A stretch of DNA of 36,684 nt, from the NCBI GenBank assembly GCA_021463145.1, contig JAJTWZ010000043.1, positions 1-36,684 of the forward strand. Reading direction: 5' to 3'. Below the pieces are notes generated by a model. That model had not been told where the DNA came from, did not search any database, and worked only from the letters and a program-made list of their open reading frames with translations. The DNA is from Blastocatellia bacterium (GTDB taxonomy: Bacteria; Acidobacteriota; Blastocatellia; UBA7656; JADIYM01). Positions 2,307-33,696 of this stretch are shown one piece after another. A program made the position numbers and the translations under genes. Within the stretch, counting starts at the first letter, position 1. Each line of letters opens with the position of its first letter.

Positions 2307-4121
2307 ATGAAGTTGCGCGCAATCGCGTTTGCTCTCGTGACCGTGTTCTGCATTGCGACTGGATGCTCCGGACCTGCTTCCGGGCCTCCGGGGGCTGGAC
2401 CCACAGGCGTCGCCAACCCGCCTTTCGAGGGTGAACCGCCGGCCGAGCCCTATGTCTACGAGGGAGAGACCGGCGTCTACGGCGGGATGCTCGTCATCCC
2501 AACCGCGCAGGATCCGAAGTCGTTCAACGGTCTTACCGCGGGCGAGACGTCGACGACCGGGATCGTGAATGGTCCCATCTACTCGGCGCTCATCGGATTC
2601 GACAACATCGCGCAGAAGATCGACAACGGCCTCTGCACTTCGATCGAATCGTCGGAAGACAAACTGGTCTGGACGTTCAAGATCCGAAAGGGTGTGAGAT
2701 GGTCCGACGGAGAACCGTTCACGGCGAACGACGTGAAGTTCAACTTCGACGTGGCGTTCGACAAGAACATCGACAATTCGGTCAAGAGTTCATTCGAGCA
2801 GTCGGACGGGACACTTCCCAAGGTCGAGGCCGTCGACGATCTGACGGTCAAATTCACGCTGACGGAGCCGAATGCAATCTTCCTCGACAACGTCGGATCG
2901 ACGTATCTCGTGCCCAGGCACAAGTGGGAAGAGTCGTACAAGAAGGGCGAGTTCGCCGATCGGGCCTTGACGATAGACACAAGGCCCGAAGACGTCGTCG
3001 GCCTGGGACCGTTTCGTCTCAAGGAGTTCGCCTCCGAGCAGCGCGTCCTGATGGAGCGCAACCCGTACTACTGGAAGGTCGACAAGAAGGGCCAGCGTCT
3101 GCCTTACCTCGATCGGGTGATCTTCCGGATCGTTCCGGACATGAACACGATGCTAAGCGTGTTCCAGAATGGCGAAGTCGACATGCACTGGAACGTCAGG
3201 CCCGAAGACTACTCACTGCTCAAGCGCGAGGAGCAGAACGGCGACTACACCGTGCAGGAACTGGGGCCCGGCTACAACGTGCTCTACATCATGGTTAACC
3301 AGAACACCGGTAAGAATAAGGCTGGAAAGCCGAATGTCGACCCGGTGCTCAGCGAGTGGTTCAGGAATGTGAAGTTCCGTAAGGCTCTCGCGCACGCGAT
3401 AGATCGCCAGGCAATCATTACGACTGCGTTCCAGGGACTCGGCACCCCGGTCGAAACATTCTGTCCACCGGCGAACAAAGTCTGGTACGACAAGGATGCG
3501 TCCGTCAGTTACGACTACTCGCCCGACAAGGCGAAGGCGTTGCTCAAGGAGGTCGGCCTCGAAGATCGCGACGGGGACGGCGTAGCCGAAGATGCCGCGG
3601 GCCACAAATGCGCATTCCGGCTCGTCACCAACAGCAACAATCAGGCTCGCGTTGCCGCGGCAACCGTCATCAAGGAGAACCTCAAGGCAGTAGGAATCGA
3701 CATTACGTACCAGGGCGTCGAATTCAACTCGATGGTGGACGCTCTCCAGAAGACTTTCGACTGGGACGCCGCCATCGGCGGTTGGCAGTCCGGAAATCCA
3801 CCCGATCCTGTACTGATGAAGAACATCGTCCTCTCATCCGGGATGCTTCATTTCAGTTTCCCGCTCCAGAAGTCGCCATCGACCGAGTGGGAGAAGCGGA
3901 TCGACGAGCTGATGATGGCCAACGCACGGACGGTCGACCTTGCCGAGCGAAAGAAGCAGTTCTCCGAGGTGCAGCACCTCTGGTCCGAGAACCTCCCCGA
4001 GATCGATCTTCTCGTTCCAAACTATTTCGTGGCCGTCAAGAACAAGGTCGGGAACGTCCGATCGTCTCCGCTGGCGACGTACACCTACTGGAATATCGAC
4101 GAGCTCTACCTCAAGAAGTAG
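2307..4121 (+). CDS. ABC transporter peptide-binding lipoprotein (SBP_bac_5)
   Basis: A 604-residue extracytoplasmic solute-binding protein of the DppA/OppA family, expected to capture di- or oligopeptides for the permeases encoded next. The start is the ATG at 2307, with GGAG at 2294-2297, although the frame stays open upstream to 2118; from here the protein begins with a basic, hydrophobic signal ending IATGC, so Cys20 is the likely lipidated residue (the lipobox is not perfect, Ala at -3). The family core follows, including the conserved WTFKIRKGVRWSDGEPF segment near residue 115-135. An acidic loop DRDGDGVAED near residue 420 resembles a calcium-binding loop, which is common in long members. 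Long for the family (E. coli DppA is about 535). Substrate cannot be fixed from sequence; nickel or sugar specificity exists in this superfamily. Confidence 0.93.
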   Translation: MKLRAIAFALVTVFCIATGCSGPASGPPGAGPTGVANPPFEGEPPAEPYVYEGETGVYGGMLVIPTAQDPKSFNGLTAGETSTTGIVNGPIYSALIGFDNIAQKIDNGLCTSIESSEDKLVWTFKIRKGVRWSDGEPFTANDVKFNFDVAFDKNIDNSVKSSFEQSDGTLPKVEAVDDLTVKFTLTEPNAIFLDNVGSTYLVPRHKWEESYKKGEFADRALTIDTRPEDVVGLGPFRLKEFASEQRVLMERNPYYWKVDKKGQRLPYLDRVIFRIVPDMNTMLSVFQNGEVDMHWNVRPEDYSLLKREEQNGDYTVQELGPGYNVLYIMVNQNTGKNKAGKPNVDPVLSEWFRNVKFRKALAHAIDRQAIITTAFQGLGTPVETFCPPANKVWYDKDASVSYDYSPDKAKALLKEVGLEDRDGDGVAEDAAGHKCAFRLVTNSNNQARVAAATVIKENLKAVGIDITYQGVEFNSMVDALQKTFDWDAAIGGWQSGNPPDPVLMKNIVLSSGMLHFSFPLQKSPSTEWEKRIDELMMANARTVDLAERKKQFSEVQHLWSENLPEIDLLVPNYFVAVKNKVGNVRSSPLATYTYWNIDELYLKK

Positions 4122-4130
4122 ATTGCCTTG

Positions 4131-4159
4131 CCTCCGCGTGGCGATTCGCCGCGCGGAGG
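4131..4159 (+). promoter_or_regulatory. Hairpin burying the permease ribosome binding site
   Basis: In the 48-bp gap between binding protein and first permease, CCTCCGCG (4131-4138) pairs perfectly with CGCGGAGG (4152-4159). A T-G pair and an inner GGCG/CGCC stem around the triloop ATT make a near-continuous 13-pair hairpin. The right arm contains GGAGG (4155-4159), the Shine-Dalgarno sequence for the ATG at 4170. It could both stabilise the upstream message and lower permease translation, giving the excess of binding protein usual for such transporters. Structure is seen; effect is inferred. Confidence 0.7.
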
Positions 4160-4169
4160 CGCGTCGCCC

Positions 4170-5141
4170 ATGAAGACTTTTCTGCTTCGCCGCTTCCTCG
4201 CGATCGTACCGCTCATCCTCGCGGTGACCTTCATCACGCAGGTGCTCCTGATCGCGTCGCCCGGCGACTATTTCTCCACGCTTTCGGAAAGTCCGAGCAT
4301 GACGCCGGAGCGGCTCGAGTTCCTGCGTGCCAAGTACCATCTCGATACCGAGAATGTATTCATACGTTACTGGTACTGGCTGTCTGGAGTGCTGACTGGC
4401 GACTTCGGTTACTCGTTCAAGTACCAGACTAGCGTCTGGTCGCTCATCGGCGACCGCATCCTCAACACGCTGTTGCTCGCAGTCGGCGCGCTGCTCATCT
4501 CGTGGGGACTCGCCATTCCACTCGGCATTCTGTCCGCAGTGAAGAAGGACAGCATCGTCGATCGGCTCGCGGGCGGACTGTCGTTCGTCGGCCTGTCGAT
4601 CCCCAGCGTTTTCTTCTCGCTATTGATGGTGCTGTTTGCCGCCAAGACCGGGCTGTTCCCCGTTGGAGGGCTTCACGATCAGGTGTACTGGGACTTCATG
4701 ACGCCCTGGCAGAAGTTCGTCGACGTGATCTGGCACCTCTTCCTGCCCGCTACCGTGCTCGGCACGATCGGGATGGCGCAGTACATGCGGCAGATGCGAG
4801 CCGAGATGATCGAAACGCTCTCGCAGGACTATATTCGAACCGCGAAAGCGAAGGGGCTTTCGCTGCGGACGGTGCTGTTCCGGCACGCGCTCGGCAACGC
4901 GATCAATCCGCTCATTACTTTGTTCGGGTTCTCGTTCGCCTACCTGCTCTCCGGCGCCTTCATCACGGAATTCGTCTTCGCCTGGCCTGGAATGGGCCGG
5001 CTAACGGTTGACGCGCTCATCATCAAGGACGAACCGCTCGTAATGGCTTCGATAGTGATGGTCACGGTAATGCTCGTCGCCGGCAATCTTCTCGCCGACA
5101 TCCTTCTCGCGGCGGTCGATCCGCGAATCCGACTGGAGTAG
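4170..5141 (+). CDS. ABC transporter permease, DppB/OppB family
   Basis: A 323-residue inner-membrane permease. The N-terminus MKTFLLRRFLAIVPLILAVTFI is the typical first transmembrane helix of DppB/OppB proteins, followed by a periplasmic segment and five more helices. The cytoplasmic EAA loop that contacts the ATPases is visible as RQMRAEMIETLSQDYIRTAKAKG, and the C-terminus DPRIRLE is typical. The start is ATG 4170 rather than the first frame-compatible codon at 4128, because homologues begin here and GGAGG lies ten bases upstream. Length is slightly above DppB (about 339 in E. coli is comparable). It is second in a tightly packed operon and its ribosome site lies in a hairpin. Confidence 0.93.
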   Translation: MKTFLLRRFLAIVPLILAVTFITQVLLIASPGDYFSTLSESPSMTPERLEFLRAKYHLDTENVFIRYWYWLSGVLTGDFGYSFKYQTSVWSLIGDRILNTLLLAVGALLISWGLAIPLGILSAVKKDSIVDRLAGGLSFVGLSIPSVFFSLLMVLFAAKTGLFPVGGLHDQVYWDFMTPWQKFVDVIWHLFLPATVLGTIGMAQYMRQMRAEMIETLSQDYIRTAKAKGLSLRTVLFRHALGNAINPLITLFGFSFAYLLSGAFITEFVFAWPGMGRLTVDALIIKDEPLVMASIVMVTVMLVAGNLLADILLAAVDPRIRLE

Positions 5142-5144
5142 CCG

Positions 5145-6296
5145 GTGCCGTCGAACGCAACGTCTATCGAATCGCCGCCCGACGGGTCCGGGATGCCGTC
5201 CGGATCGGCGTCCGCGGTGGTCAACCGCACCCCGTGGCAGATCCTTTGGCTCAAGCTCGAGCGAAACCGTGTGGCGATGGCGGCGATGTGGTTGCTCGTG
5301 TTGCTCTACGCCCTTGCGGTGTTTGCGGACTTCATCTCGCCGTATTCGTACGACGCACAGGACGCGAAGCGTTCGTTTCATCCACCCCACCTGCTCGGCC
5401 GAATTCACGTGGTCGACGAGCAGGGCAACTGGGGGCGTCCGTTCGTTTACGGCTCGAAGCTTGCGAACGTGTACGACAAGGAGTACTCCGAGGACAGGTC
5501 GGCTAAATATCCGATCCGGCTCTTAGCCGAAGGTAGCGAGTACCGCCTGCTCTGGTTCATTCCGATGAAGACCCACCTCTTCGGCGTCGACGAGCCTGCG
5601 CGGTTGTATCTGTTCGGCGGCGATCAGTTCGGGCGCGACATCCTGTCTCGCATTCTCTATGGCGGCCGGATCTCACTGTCGGTCGGCATCGTCGGAATCG
5701 CCATCTCTACGTCGATCGGCATGCTGGTCGGCGGAATAGCCGGCTATTTCGGGGGCGCGGTGGATTTCGGACTGATGCGGCTCGTGGAGCTGATCCTCGC
5801 GCTGCCCAGCCTCTACCTGATCCTCGTCCTCCGCCAGAGCTTCGGCGCGAACATGTCCTCGACGCAGCTGTATCTGATCATCATTCTCATTCTGTCCTTC
5901 ATAGGATGGGCCTCCATCGCCAGGGTCATCCGCGGCATGGTCCTTTCGATCAAGGAACAGGAGTACGTCATAGCGGCGCAGGCGCTCGGCTTCAGCAGGA
6001 TGTGGATCGTGCTCAGGCACATCCTGCCGAACACTTTGTCGTTCGTGATCGTGACGGCGACGCTCAGCGTGCCGTTCTACATTCTCGGCGAGGTTGCGCT
6101 CTCGTTTCTCGGCGTTGGCGTCCAGGAGCCAGAGGCTTCCTGGGGCAACATGTTGCAGGCGGCGCAGAACCTGAGATACCTGACCGACTACTCGTGGATC
6201 CTGACGCCGGGGGTTTTCATTTTTCTCGCGGTGATGGCGTGGAACGTATTCGGCGACGGACTGCGCGACGCCGCGGATCCGAGGACCGAGCGATGA
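5145..6296 (+). CDS. ABC transporter permease, DppC/OppC family, with long periplasmic insert
   Basis: A 383-residue permease that pairs with the upstream DppB-like subunit. GTG at 5145 is the start: it lies three bases after the previous stop, with GGAG at 5135-5138 and a six-base spacing. An N-terminal tail rich in Pro, Ser and Gly precedes the first helix (about residues 44-62). About 90 residues (roughly 64-150, including RIHVVDEQGNWGRPF and the LFGVDEPARLYLFGGDQFGRD region) then lie outside before the five-helix core. Standard DppC proteins are about 300 residues, so the insert explains the extra length. The EAA loop is visible (VIRGMVLSIKEQEYVIAAQALG). The end overlaps the next gene by ATGA. 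Confidence 0.93.
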   Translation: MPSNATSIESPPDGSGMPSGSASAVVNRTPWQILWLKLERNRVAMAAMWLLVLLYALAVFADFISPYSYDAQDAKRSFHPPHLLGRIHVVDEQGNWGRPFVYGSKLANVYDKEYSEDRSAKYPIRLLAEGSEYRLLWFIPMKTHLFGVDEPARLYLFGGDQFGRDILSRILYGGRISLSVGIVGIAISTSIGMLVGGIAGYFGGAVDFGLMRLVELILALPSLYLILVLRQSFGANMSSTQLYLIIILILSFIGWASIARVIRGMVLSIKEQEYVIAAQALGFSRMWIVLRHILPNTLSFVIVTATLSVPFYILGEVALSFLGVGVQEPEASWGNMLQAAQNLRYLTDYSWILTPGVFIFLAVMAWNVFGDGLRDAADPRTER

Positions 6297-7297
6297 GTGC
6301 GGAGGCCGCCGCAGGGCGCCCGTTGTTGTCGATTCGGGACCTCAGGACGTACTTCCATACGTCCGACGGCATCGCCCGATCGGTTGACGGCGTTTCATTC
6401 GACATATTTCCGGGGGAGACGCTCGCGGTCGTTGGCGAGTCCGGCTGCGGCAAGTCCGTCACTGCTTTCACGATCATGGGTCTCGTTCCGGTTCCACCGG
6501 GCCGAGTGGAGGGAGGCGAGATTCTCCTTGGGGACCGTGATCTGCTGAAGTTGCCGGAGTCGGCGATGCGCGACGTGCGGGGCAACGACATCTCGATGGT
6601 CTTTCAGGAACCGATGACGTCGCTGAATCCTATCCTTACGATCGGGCGCCAGATTTCGGAAGCGATTCTCAGGCACAAGGACGTCACGAAAGTAGAGGCG
6701 CGGCGCCTTTCGATCGAGATGCTCTCCCGAGTCGGCATCCCATCGCCCGAGCGGCGAGCGGACGAGTACCCACACCAGCTCTCGGGTGGAATGAAGCAAC
6801 GGGCGATGATCGCAATGGCGCTCGTGTGCCGGCCCAGGCTCCTGATCGCCGACGAGCCGACGACGGCGCTCGACGTTACGATTCAGTCGCAGATACTCGA
6901 TCTGCTCAACGACCTGCGTGAGGAGTTCGAGATGTCGGTGCTGCTCATCACGCACGATCTCGGTGTAGTGGCGGAAGTGGCTGACCGGGTGATCGTGATG
7001 TACGCGGGAAAGGTGGTCGAGTCGGCCGGCGTCGTGGATCTGTTCGAACGGCCGGGACATCCGTACACTCGGGCGCTTTTCAGGTCACTGCCTTCGCTCG
7101 AGCATCGCGGGGAAGCTCTGCAAGTCATTCCGGGCAACGTCCCCAACCCGCTCGACTTCCCGTCCGGATGCAGGTTCCGCACGCGTTGCCCCATCGCGAG
7201 GCCGGAATGCGCGACGACGGATCCGCAGCTGATTGAGGCCGCGCCGCGGCATCTGGTCGCGTGCCCGTTCTCGAGCGATGGAGGCGACGCGCAATGA
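6293..7297 (+). CDS. Peptide ABC transporter ATP-binding protein, DppD/OppD family
   Basis: A 334-residue ATPase subunit. Walker A is GESGCGKS near residue 45, the signature LSGGMKQR near residue 163, and Walker [13 protein letters not shown] follows, with a His switch in LLITHDLG. The C-terminal oligopeptide/dipeptide domain has a Cys cluster ([14 protein letters not shown]) typical of DppD/DppF proteins, some of which hold an iron-sulfur cluster. I chose ATG 6293, which overlaps the permease stop as ATGA, over the long upstream frame that is only a shadow of the permease. Coupled translation with the permease is likely. It would form a heterodimer with the next protein. Confidence 0.94.
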
Positions 7298-8334
7298 TCA
7301 AGCCCGGTGCTCGTCCGCTGCTCGAGGTTGCTAATCTCCAGAAGTTCTACCCGATCAGGAAGGGTCTGATCCCGCGTGTCGTGGGCAACGTGCAGGCCGT
7401 GGGCGACGTTTCGTTCTCGGTAGCAGAGCAGGAAACTCTCGGGCTCGTGGGCGAGTCCGGTTGCGGGAAAACGACTGTCGGACGGTGCGTGCTTCGTCTG
7501 ATCGAGCCGACTGGCGGCTCGGTGAGATTCGACGGTGCGGACGTACTGGCTCTTTCGAGCGGCGAGTTGCGCGGGTTGCGCCGCCGGATGCAGATCATCT
7601 TCCAGGATCCGTATTCGTCCCTGAATCCGCGCCACACCGTTGCGGAGACCGTCGGCGATGCAATGCGCCTTCACGGTATCGTCAAGTCGCGCGCTGCCGT
7701 ACGCGATCGCGTTTCGCAGTTACTCGAACGTGTCGGACTCAATCGGAACTACATCAACCGTTATCCGCACGAGTTTTCCGGTGGACAGCGGCAGCGAATC
7801 GGTATCGCGCGCGCTCTTGCCGTCGAACCCGAGTTCATCGTTTGCGACGAGGCGGTTTCGGCGCTCGACGTCTCGATACAGGCTCAGATTCTCAACCTGC
7901 TCTCGGAACTCCAGCGGGAAATGAAGCTCGCCTACCTTTTCATTGCGCACGATCTGTCGGTTGTGCGGCACATATCGGATCGAATCGCGGTGATGTATCT
8001 CGGCCATATCGTAGAGGAGGCGGGCACCGACGACCTGTTCGCCTCTCCGGCGCATCCCTACACGAGGGCGCTGCTCTCGGCCATTCCGATACCGGTGCCG
8101 AAACGCGCTCGTACGAACATCCCGCTCGAGGGAGATGTGCCGTCGCCGATAGACCCGCCAAGCGGTTGTCATTTCCGAACCCGCTGCCCGCTCGCAACCG
8201 CGGAGTGCGCCGAGGCCCGGCCGCCCCTGGTCGAGATCGGACCGGGACATCGAGCGGCGTGCATTCACCTGGATAGAATCGATGAGCTGCCGATGCCGTT
8301 TGCGTCCAGCCTCGCGCGTGAGGGCTCCAGGTGA
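7294..8334 (+). CDS. Peptide ABC transporter ATP-binding protein, DppF/OppF family
   Basis: A 346-residue ATPase subunit, partner of the DppD-like protein. Walker A GESGCGKT, the DppF-typical [15 protein letters not shown]-loop segment, signature [15 protein letters not shown], Walker [15 protein letters not shown] and the HDLSVV switch are all present, followed by the Cys-containing C-terminal domain ([14 protein letters not shown]). The start ATG 7294 overlaps the preceding stop as ATGA; an in-frame GTG at 7261 lies inside the upstream gene and is less likely. The last codons form the left arm of a hairpin that hides the ribosome site of the downstream kinase. Confidence 0.94.
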
Positions 8335-33310: not shown

Positions 33311-33601
33311 ATGATCGTGGTATTTGCAAACGTCCGGGCCAAGGAGGGAAGGGAGGCCGAGTTCGGCGAGGTGGTGCGGAAACTGGTTCGCGAGACCCGG
33401 ACCGAGGAGGGATGTCTTCAGTACGACGCCCACCAGGCGACCGAGAACCCGTGTGCATTCGCCTTCTACGAGCGCTGGGCGTCGAAGGAGGCGCTGGATT
33501 TCCACCTGCGGACGCCGCACATCGCCGAGGCTTTCGCTGTATTGCCCGAGCTCGCGGAGGGCCCACCCGCGATCGTCACTTACGACCTGATCGAGGCGTA
33601 G
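33311..33601 (+). CDS. Antibiotic biosynthesis monooxygenase (ABM) domain protein
   Basis: A 96-residue single-domain protein of the dimeric alpha-beta barrel fold. MIVVFANVRAKEGREAEF, EEGCLQYDAHQ, FAFYERWASKEALDFH and HIAEAF follow the YgiN/ABM pattern. Family members include quinol monooxygenase YgiN and heme-degrading enzymes, but many have unknown substrates. AGGAG at 33300-33304, six bases before ATG 33311, fixes the start; the open frame reaching back to 32969 is a shadow of pgi. It is divergent from pgi (159 bp) and convergent with trxA. Substrate not predictable. Confidence 0.92.
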   Translation: MIVVFANVRAKEGREAEFGEVVRKLVRETRTEEGCLQYDAHQATENPCAFAFYERWASKEALDFHLRTPHIAEAFAVLPELAEGPPAIVTYDLIEA

Positions 33602-33611
33602 CCCGCAGACG

Positions 33612-33652
33612 GCAGCGCGGATCGGCCGTTGAGTCCGGACGATCCGCGCTGC
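33612..33652 (+). terminator. Terminator-like hairpin after ABM gene
   Basis: GCAGCGCGGATC (33612-33623) and GATCCGCGCTGC (33641-33652) form a perfect 12-bp stem with a 17-nt loop, ten bases after the stop of the ABM gene. Only a short AT-rich stretch (TCAATATT) follows, not a true T run. Confidence 0.7.
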
Positions 33653-33663
33653 TCAATATTCGA

Positions 33664-33687
33664 TCCGGCCACGGGACGCGGGCCGGA
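33664..33687 (-). terminator. Terminator-like hairpin after thioredoxin gene
   Basis: TCCGGCC (33664-33670) pairs with GGCCGGA (33681-33687) across ten bases, nine bases beyond the trxA stop on the minus strand. With the neighbouring 12-bp stem it forms back-to-back terminators between convergent genes. Confidence 0.5.
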
Positions 33688-33696
33688 CCGGGCCGA

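Follow-up and report, generated by a model that had tools for sequence, protein, structure and literature searches.

ABC importers need their binding protein in excess, and to our knowledge it is hardly known how operons beyond the model bacteria reach an excess of the substrate-binding protein (SBP). Several described systems bear on this. In all five E. coli ABC importers for which differential decay was found, the binding protein is the favoured gene, and the stabilised mRNA segments carry more ribosomes (PMC5927463). The malE-malF junction holds a known protective intergenic structure, for which the authors propose protection combined with blocked downstream initiation (PMC5927463). Cellulolytic Clostridia place internal terminators, with a U tract that was found to be necessary, right after the 5′ SBP gene (PMC9045158). 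In Vibrio, when initiation at oppB is blocked, Rho terminates transcription inside that gene (PMC7398697).

The locus described here resembles each of these systems in part. As at malE-malF, a stem follows the first, binding-protein gene of an ABC importer operon, and more SBP than permease would be expected (PMC5927463). Here, unlike at malE-malF, a single short and almost perfect stem encloses the whole permease Shine-Dalgarno (SD) site; its sequence does not belong to a repeat, the orthologues have stems of unrelated sequence, and the structure is a prediction from sequence. The position immediately behind the 5′ SBP gene and a similar folding energy are shared with the clostridial terminators; however, the U tract is missing here (PMC9045158). 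As for OppZ and oppB in Vibrio cholerae, translation of the oppB-like gene would be the step at which oppBCDF comes under separate control from oppA, but the block here would be a hairpin in cis rather than a small RNA acting in trans with Hfq (PMC7398697). The principle is therefore already known from other bacteria, and this hairpin is an unusually extreme case of it.

The window, that is, the whole stretch of 36,684 nt that was analysed, is an entire contig (C112) of a 5.28 Mb genome (G000) with 63% GC in the sampled part, whose nearest relatives among the genomes compared are Blastocatellia of the Acidobacteriota. By Pfam, positions 2307-8334 form a peptide/oligopeptide ABC importer operon with an SBP_bac_5 protein, two permeases and two ATPases (Table 1). 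The start of the first permease gene at ATG 4170 is backed by an N-terminus conserved across seven orthologues. TTG 4128 was considered as an alternative start and dropped, as the conserved N-terminus begins at ATG 4170. The hairpin fills the 48-nt gap between the SBP and DppB-like genes. The other junctions of the operon are overlaps or 3 nt, and a gap survey found no hairpin at the 3-nt DppB-DppC junction. Across this gap, the SBP stop and the DppB ATG share a reading frame (4119-4170). Readthrough from SBP into DppB was nevertheless dropped, because the corresponding gaps in relatives are not multiples of three. The gaps in the five relatives with repeat stems (94, 100, 121, 145 and 166 nt) are all a multiple of three plus one, which is probably coincidence.

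Table 1. Features of the importer operon and of its first intergenic gap (window coordinates).
Feature	Position	Strand	Basis or remark
Substrate-binding protein, peptide/oligopeptide ABC importer (SBP_bac_5)	2307..4121	+	PF00496, 317.7 bits, E 1.4e-94
SBP stop TAG	4119-4121	+	sequence
First permease, DppB/OppB-like	4170..5141	+	PF00528, 145.7 bits; PF19300 from residue 1
Second permease, DppC/OppC-like	5145..6296	+	PF00528, PF12911
ATPase, DppD/OppD-like	6293..7297	+	PF00005, PF08352; 4-nt overlap with DppC/OppC-like gene
ATPase, DppF/OppF-like	7294..8334	+	PF00005, PF08352; 4-nt overlap with DppD/OppD-like gene
Hairpin 5′ arm, GCCTCCGCGTGGCG	4130..4143	+	holds SD partner CCTCC 4131-4135
Hairpin loop ATT	4144..4146	+	
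Hairpin 3′ arm, CGCCGCGCGGAGGC	4147..4160	+	
GGAGG, permease Shine-Dalgarno site	4155..4159	+	sequence; entirely within stem

A sequence-only reading of this DNA had proposed a hairpin of 13 pairs at 4131-4159. The hairpin is present at that place and has the three-base loop, but it comprises 14 pairs and spans 4130-4160: 13 are Watson-Crick pairs and one is U4139-G4151. In isolation it is predicted to fold with -31.8 kcal/mol (RNAfold; z -6.9 against shuffles), and the identical stem folds in a 101-nt context (z -3.8) and in a 201-nt context. The same reading rightly placed it just after the binding-protein stop, as the stem starts 8 nt downstream of the TAG, which is just clear of a terminating ribosome. 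It was also right that the GGAGG of the DppB-like gene lies fully inside the stem. This motif, 10 nt from the DppB ATG, occupies the lower 3′ arm, is paired with its CCTCC partner in the dominant fold and has a probability of being unpaired of ~0.00. The hairpin is not a canonical intrinsic terminator, since it has no U tail: there is almost no T in the ten bases 3′ of the stem (CGTCGCCCAT), and a terminator scan did not list it. An Rfam search of the window gave no match at the gathering score.

We compared the hairpin with a background of 737 kb (14%) of its own genome, in which genes were called with a simple hexamer model. GGAGG or AGGAG was found at 23% of starts versus 2% of a control stretch, a twelve-fold enrichment, showing that SD use is real in this genome and that a buried GGAGG is meaningful. 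The opening cost of a start was taken as the cost of unpairing its bases -18 to +3. With 60 nt of upstream context the DppB start was the costliest to open (26.9 kcal/mol, rank 1/539 sampled starts; median 9.9, 99th percentile 20.4, runner-up 22.4 kcal/mol) and with 180 nt it ranked 2/537, although start errors of the simple gene caller would add noise to these ranks. Perfect stems of at least 14 bp with a loop of 3-8 occurred 20 times in the 737 kb, 15 of them intergenic, against ~5 per shuffled copy of all 737 kb, of which ~0.6 would be intergenic. The chance expectation of such a stem in a 48-nt gap, taken from the shuffles, is ~3e-4. The hairpin is beyond chance. At the threshold used, strong hairpins were present in 23/211 co-directional and 13/57 convergent gaps, while of the 76 co-directional gaps with a length of 30-80 nt the DppB gap alone held one this strong. 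At a paralogous SBP-permease junction of G000 (L133), the gap appears to be very short and to lack a hairpin. Elsewhere in the window, a long stem of 18 pairs with a loop of 7 lies between convergent genes (33601-33696) and is likely a shared 3′ end.

Conservation of the pairing in orthologous operons had been named as a check, and here the outcome was divided. The order is represented by eight genomes, that of the window and seven others (G001-G007), six of which have the SBP gene adjoining the permease gene; the best SBP match of G006 sits on a different contig from the permease. A strong stem was found at 6/7 orthologous junctions (G000-G005), but the sequences are unrelated and the 38-nt gap of G007 has no strong stem. 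The junction stems of G001-G005 are inverted arrays of ~7-bp units that differ widely (GTCCGTA, CAGTTTT, GTCAGAA, GTCGGTA). These five gaps share no alignable sequence and show no clear SD outside the stems. The permease-permease junctions of these operons never had a strong stem, even the four with gaps of 25-147 nt. In four of these genomes (f2), length-matched co-directional gaps held a strong stem in 17/61 cases (28%), so that a stem at four of four junctions has P ~0.006 if these are independent, though the f2 species may share descent. Together these counts give a moderate junction-specific enrichment of stems. In other families of the class an SBP gene was hardly ever found immediately 5′ of this permease gene, the pair being divergent or apart in several cases and so providing no junction, and a single scan of genome contigs for further relatives returned the same relatives only.

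Burial of the ribosome-binding site is less uniform. The permease start was costliest or second costliest among sampled starts in G000, G002 and G004, and the opening cost was extreme or high in 4/7 orthologues (G000, G002 and G004 extreme, G005 high), whereas the remaining 3/7 (G001, G003 and G007) were ordinary. Therefore, the stem recurs and burial of the ribosome-binding site varies. The translational block that had been read as built in is strongly predicted on thermodynamic grounds in G000, but as such it is variable across the orthologues. Taken together, the comparison is suggestive of conservation of structure without conservation of sequence at the SBP-permease junction. Tentatively, and with the balance of probability against it, selection across the order may keep a strong stem here while its sequence is repeatedly rebuilt, mostly by inverted 7-bp arrays abutting the permease start; the stem would then be an evolvable dial for the SBP:permease ratio.

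We propose, at roughly even confidence, that the hairpin serves as an inbuilt ratio setter between SBP and permease, skewing expression towards the SBP by 3′-end protection together with throttled translation of the permease. Within this scheme, all that concerns the decay of the mRNA, its translation and the resulting protein ratio is inferred. As the 3′ terminus of the SBP cistron, the stem would block 3′-to-5′ exonucleases, and the SBP mRNA would outlast the permease portion. With no more than 48 nt between the two genes, the permease SD is swallowed by the stem, and few ribosomes would initiate on dppB. The thinly translated downstream mRNA would then be exposed to RNase E/G cleavage and to Rho. 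Genes for RNase E/G, PNPase, Rho and RNase III are present in the genome, with the RNase E-type endonuclease and the 3′-5′ exonuclease over cut-off for PF10150 and TIGR03591. With a stable structure between SBP and permease, no intrinsic terminator motif and genes for both nucleases, the hairpin would, by analogy, closely fit the description of malE-malF-type protective structures. Blocked initiation may be the other half of the dual role proposed by Dar and Sorek (PMC5927463). Against the scheme stand the ordinary opening costs in G001, G003 and G007, the strong stems at many further co-directional gaps and the paralogous junction at L133. In a simple equilibrium model, an occlusion of 27 kcal/mol would allow almost no DppB, so something would have to open the site or initiation would have to be non-equilibrium. 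Possible routes to some permease are non-equilibrium opening, processing or a very low need for it.

The hairpin could instead be purely a 3′ protector of the SBP message; the SD would then be buried only as a by-product, where a GC-rich palindrome occupies a short gap. The orthologues share the stem behind the SBP stop and not the buried SD, and many other 3′ stems in these genomes begin within 10 nt of a stop; RNA stability, named in the sequence-only reading as the usual cause of uneven expression, fits a recurrent stem in this place at least as well as a block does. Against this, a by-product would have had to bring the permease starts of G000, G002 and G004 to the top two ranks, and we regard protection alone as unlikely, if worth serious consideration. 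Alternatively, polymerase might stop past the stem in some passages and leave a monocistronic SBP mRNA, as in the cellulolytic Clostridia (PMC9045158). The position and operon type are the same, the folding energy lies between the published extremes of -38.3 and -10.1 kcal/mol (PMC9045158), and other strong stems in this genome often lack T tails too. However, the genome does contain stems with T-rich tails, the tail here is nearly T-free, the hairpin is absent from the terminator-scan list and a stem-loop stripped of the tail yielded no band other than the bicistronic one (PMC9045158). Partial termination is thus improbable. Its location and the missing U tract make the hairpin more likely a protective 3′ structure of the SBP message than an intrinsic terminator.

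Two further explanations concern opening of the site and the origin of the palindrome. A regulated switch would have the SD opened on demand, by the SBP-terminating ribosome (coupling), a helicase, a small RNA or a protein. The CCTCC partner of the SD is the part of the stem closest to the SBP stop, and when the RNA is covered up to 4134, GGAGG can be freed for 8.7 instead of 15.3 kcal/mol. A ribosome at the SBP stop should reach only ~4128-4131, however, and with the RNA covered that far, opening of the whole site still costs 22.7-27.6 kcal/mol. Even with cover up to 4134, ~20 kcal/mol remain, and simple coupling is therefore unlikely to free the site. The V. cholerae oppB start does offer a precedent as the point where OppZ breaks the coupling of oppA to oppBCDF and sets off Rho (PMC7398697), but with neither an Rfam match in the window nor a sequence conserved in relatives, we rate a switch as very improbable. 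Lastly, intergenic palindromes and arrays of 7-bp repeats abound in these genomes, and the hairpin might be a copy of a mobile or neutral REP-like repeat that has no role. It lacks the many genomic copies of a REP or repeated palindrome, being single-copy in the whole genome of G000 at up to 3 mismatches, its own reverse complement aside. Moreover, stems recur at the SBP-permease junction and not at the next one, which leaves a repeat copy scarcely credible.

If the hairpin does both jobs of the proposed ratio setter, it would be a compact natural test of the proposal that a structure protecting one message also keeps the following gene from being translated, and this in a phylum where RNA biology has hardly been studied. 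Unrelated stems recurring at one junction would make conservation of structure without sequence directly testable.

The arrays of the relatives extend beyond this operon. Inverted arrays of ~7-bp units were seen between co-directional genes in G001, G002, G003 and G005 (L005-L009, L037-L056; for example the gap after 3303 in L112 and that after 3300 in L113). They often begin 10 nt or less from a stop codon, they end near the next start, and the unit varies from array to array. The TAACTGA heptamers of Beggiatoaceae (PMC4679880) are likewise 7-bp intergenic repeats near start codons with few canonical ribosome sites beside them. However, the Beggiatoaceae repeats are direct, whereas the orthologous Blastocatellia gaps hold inverted, stem-folding arrays, and the window's own hairpin, unlike the heptamers, is not an array (PMC4679880). 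In the literature on heptamer repeats in Acidobacteria or Blastocatellia we found no description of repeat stems. G000 also has inverted arrays, of ACAGGATT-like units (L060, L137; contigs C1, C2 and C13), and that at L137 lies downstream of an SBP-like gene and ends 2 nt upstream of an ATG. The window itself carries two other repeats. A 94-bp interspersed repeat that contains a palindrome (GGTGTTTCCTGTAAAGCAGGAAATGCC), with 53 genomic matches that are often close to contig ends, is present as two tandem copies at the right contig end (36379-36566) and as a diverged copy at the left one (223-297). At 48-119, a 28-nt direct repeat (GACCGCTTCGCGGTCAAAGCCGCGACCC) with a short internal palindrome occurs in two copies 44 nt apart.
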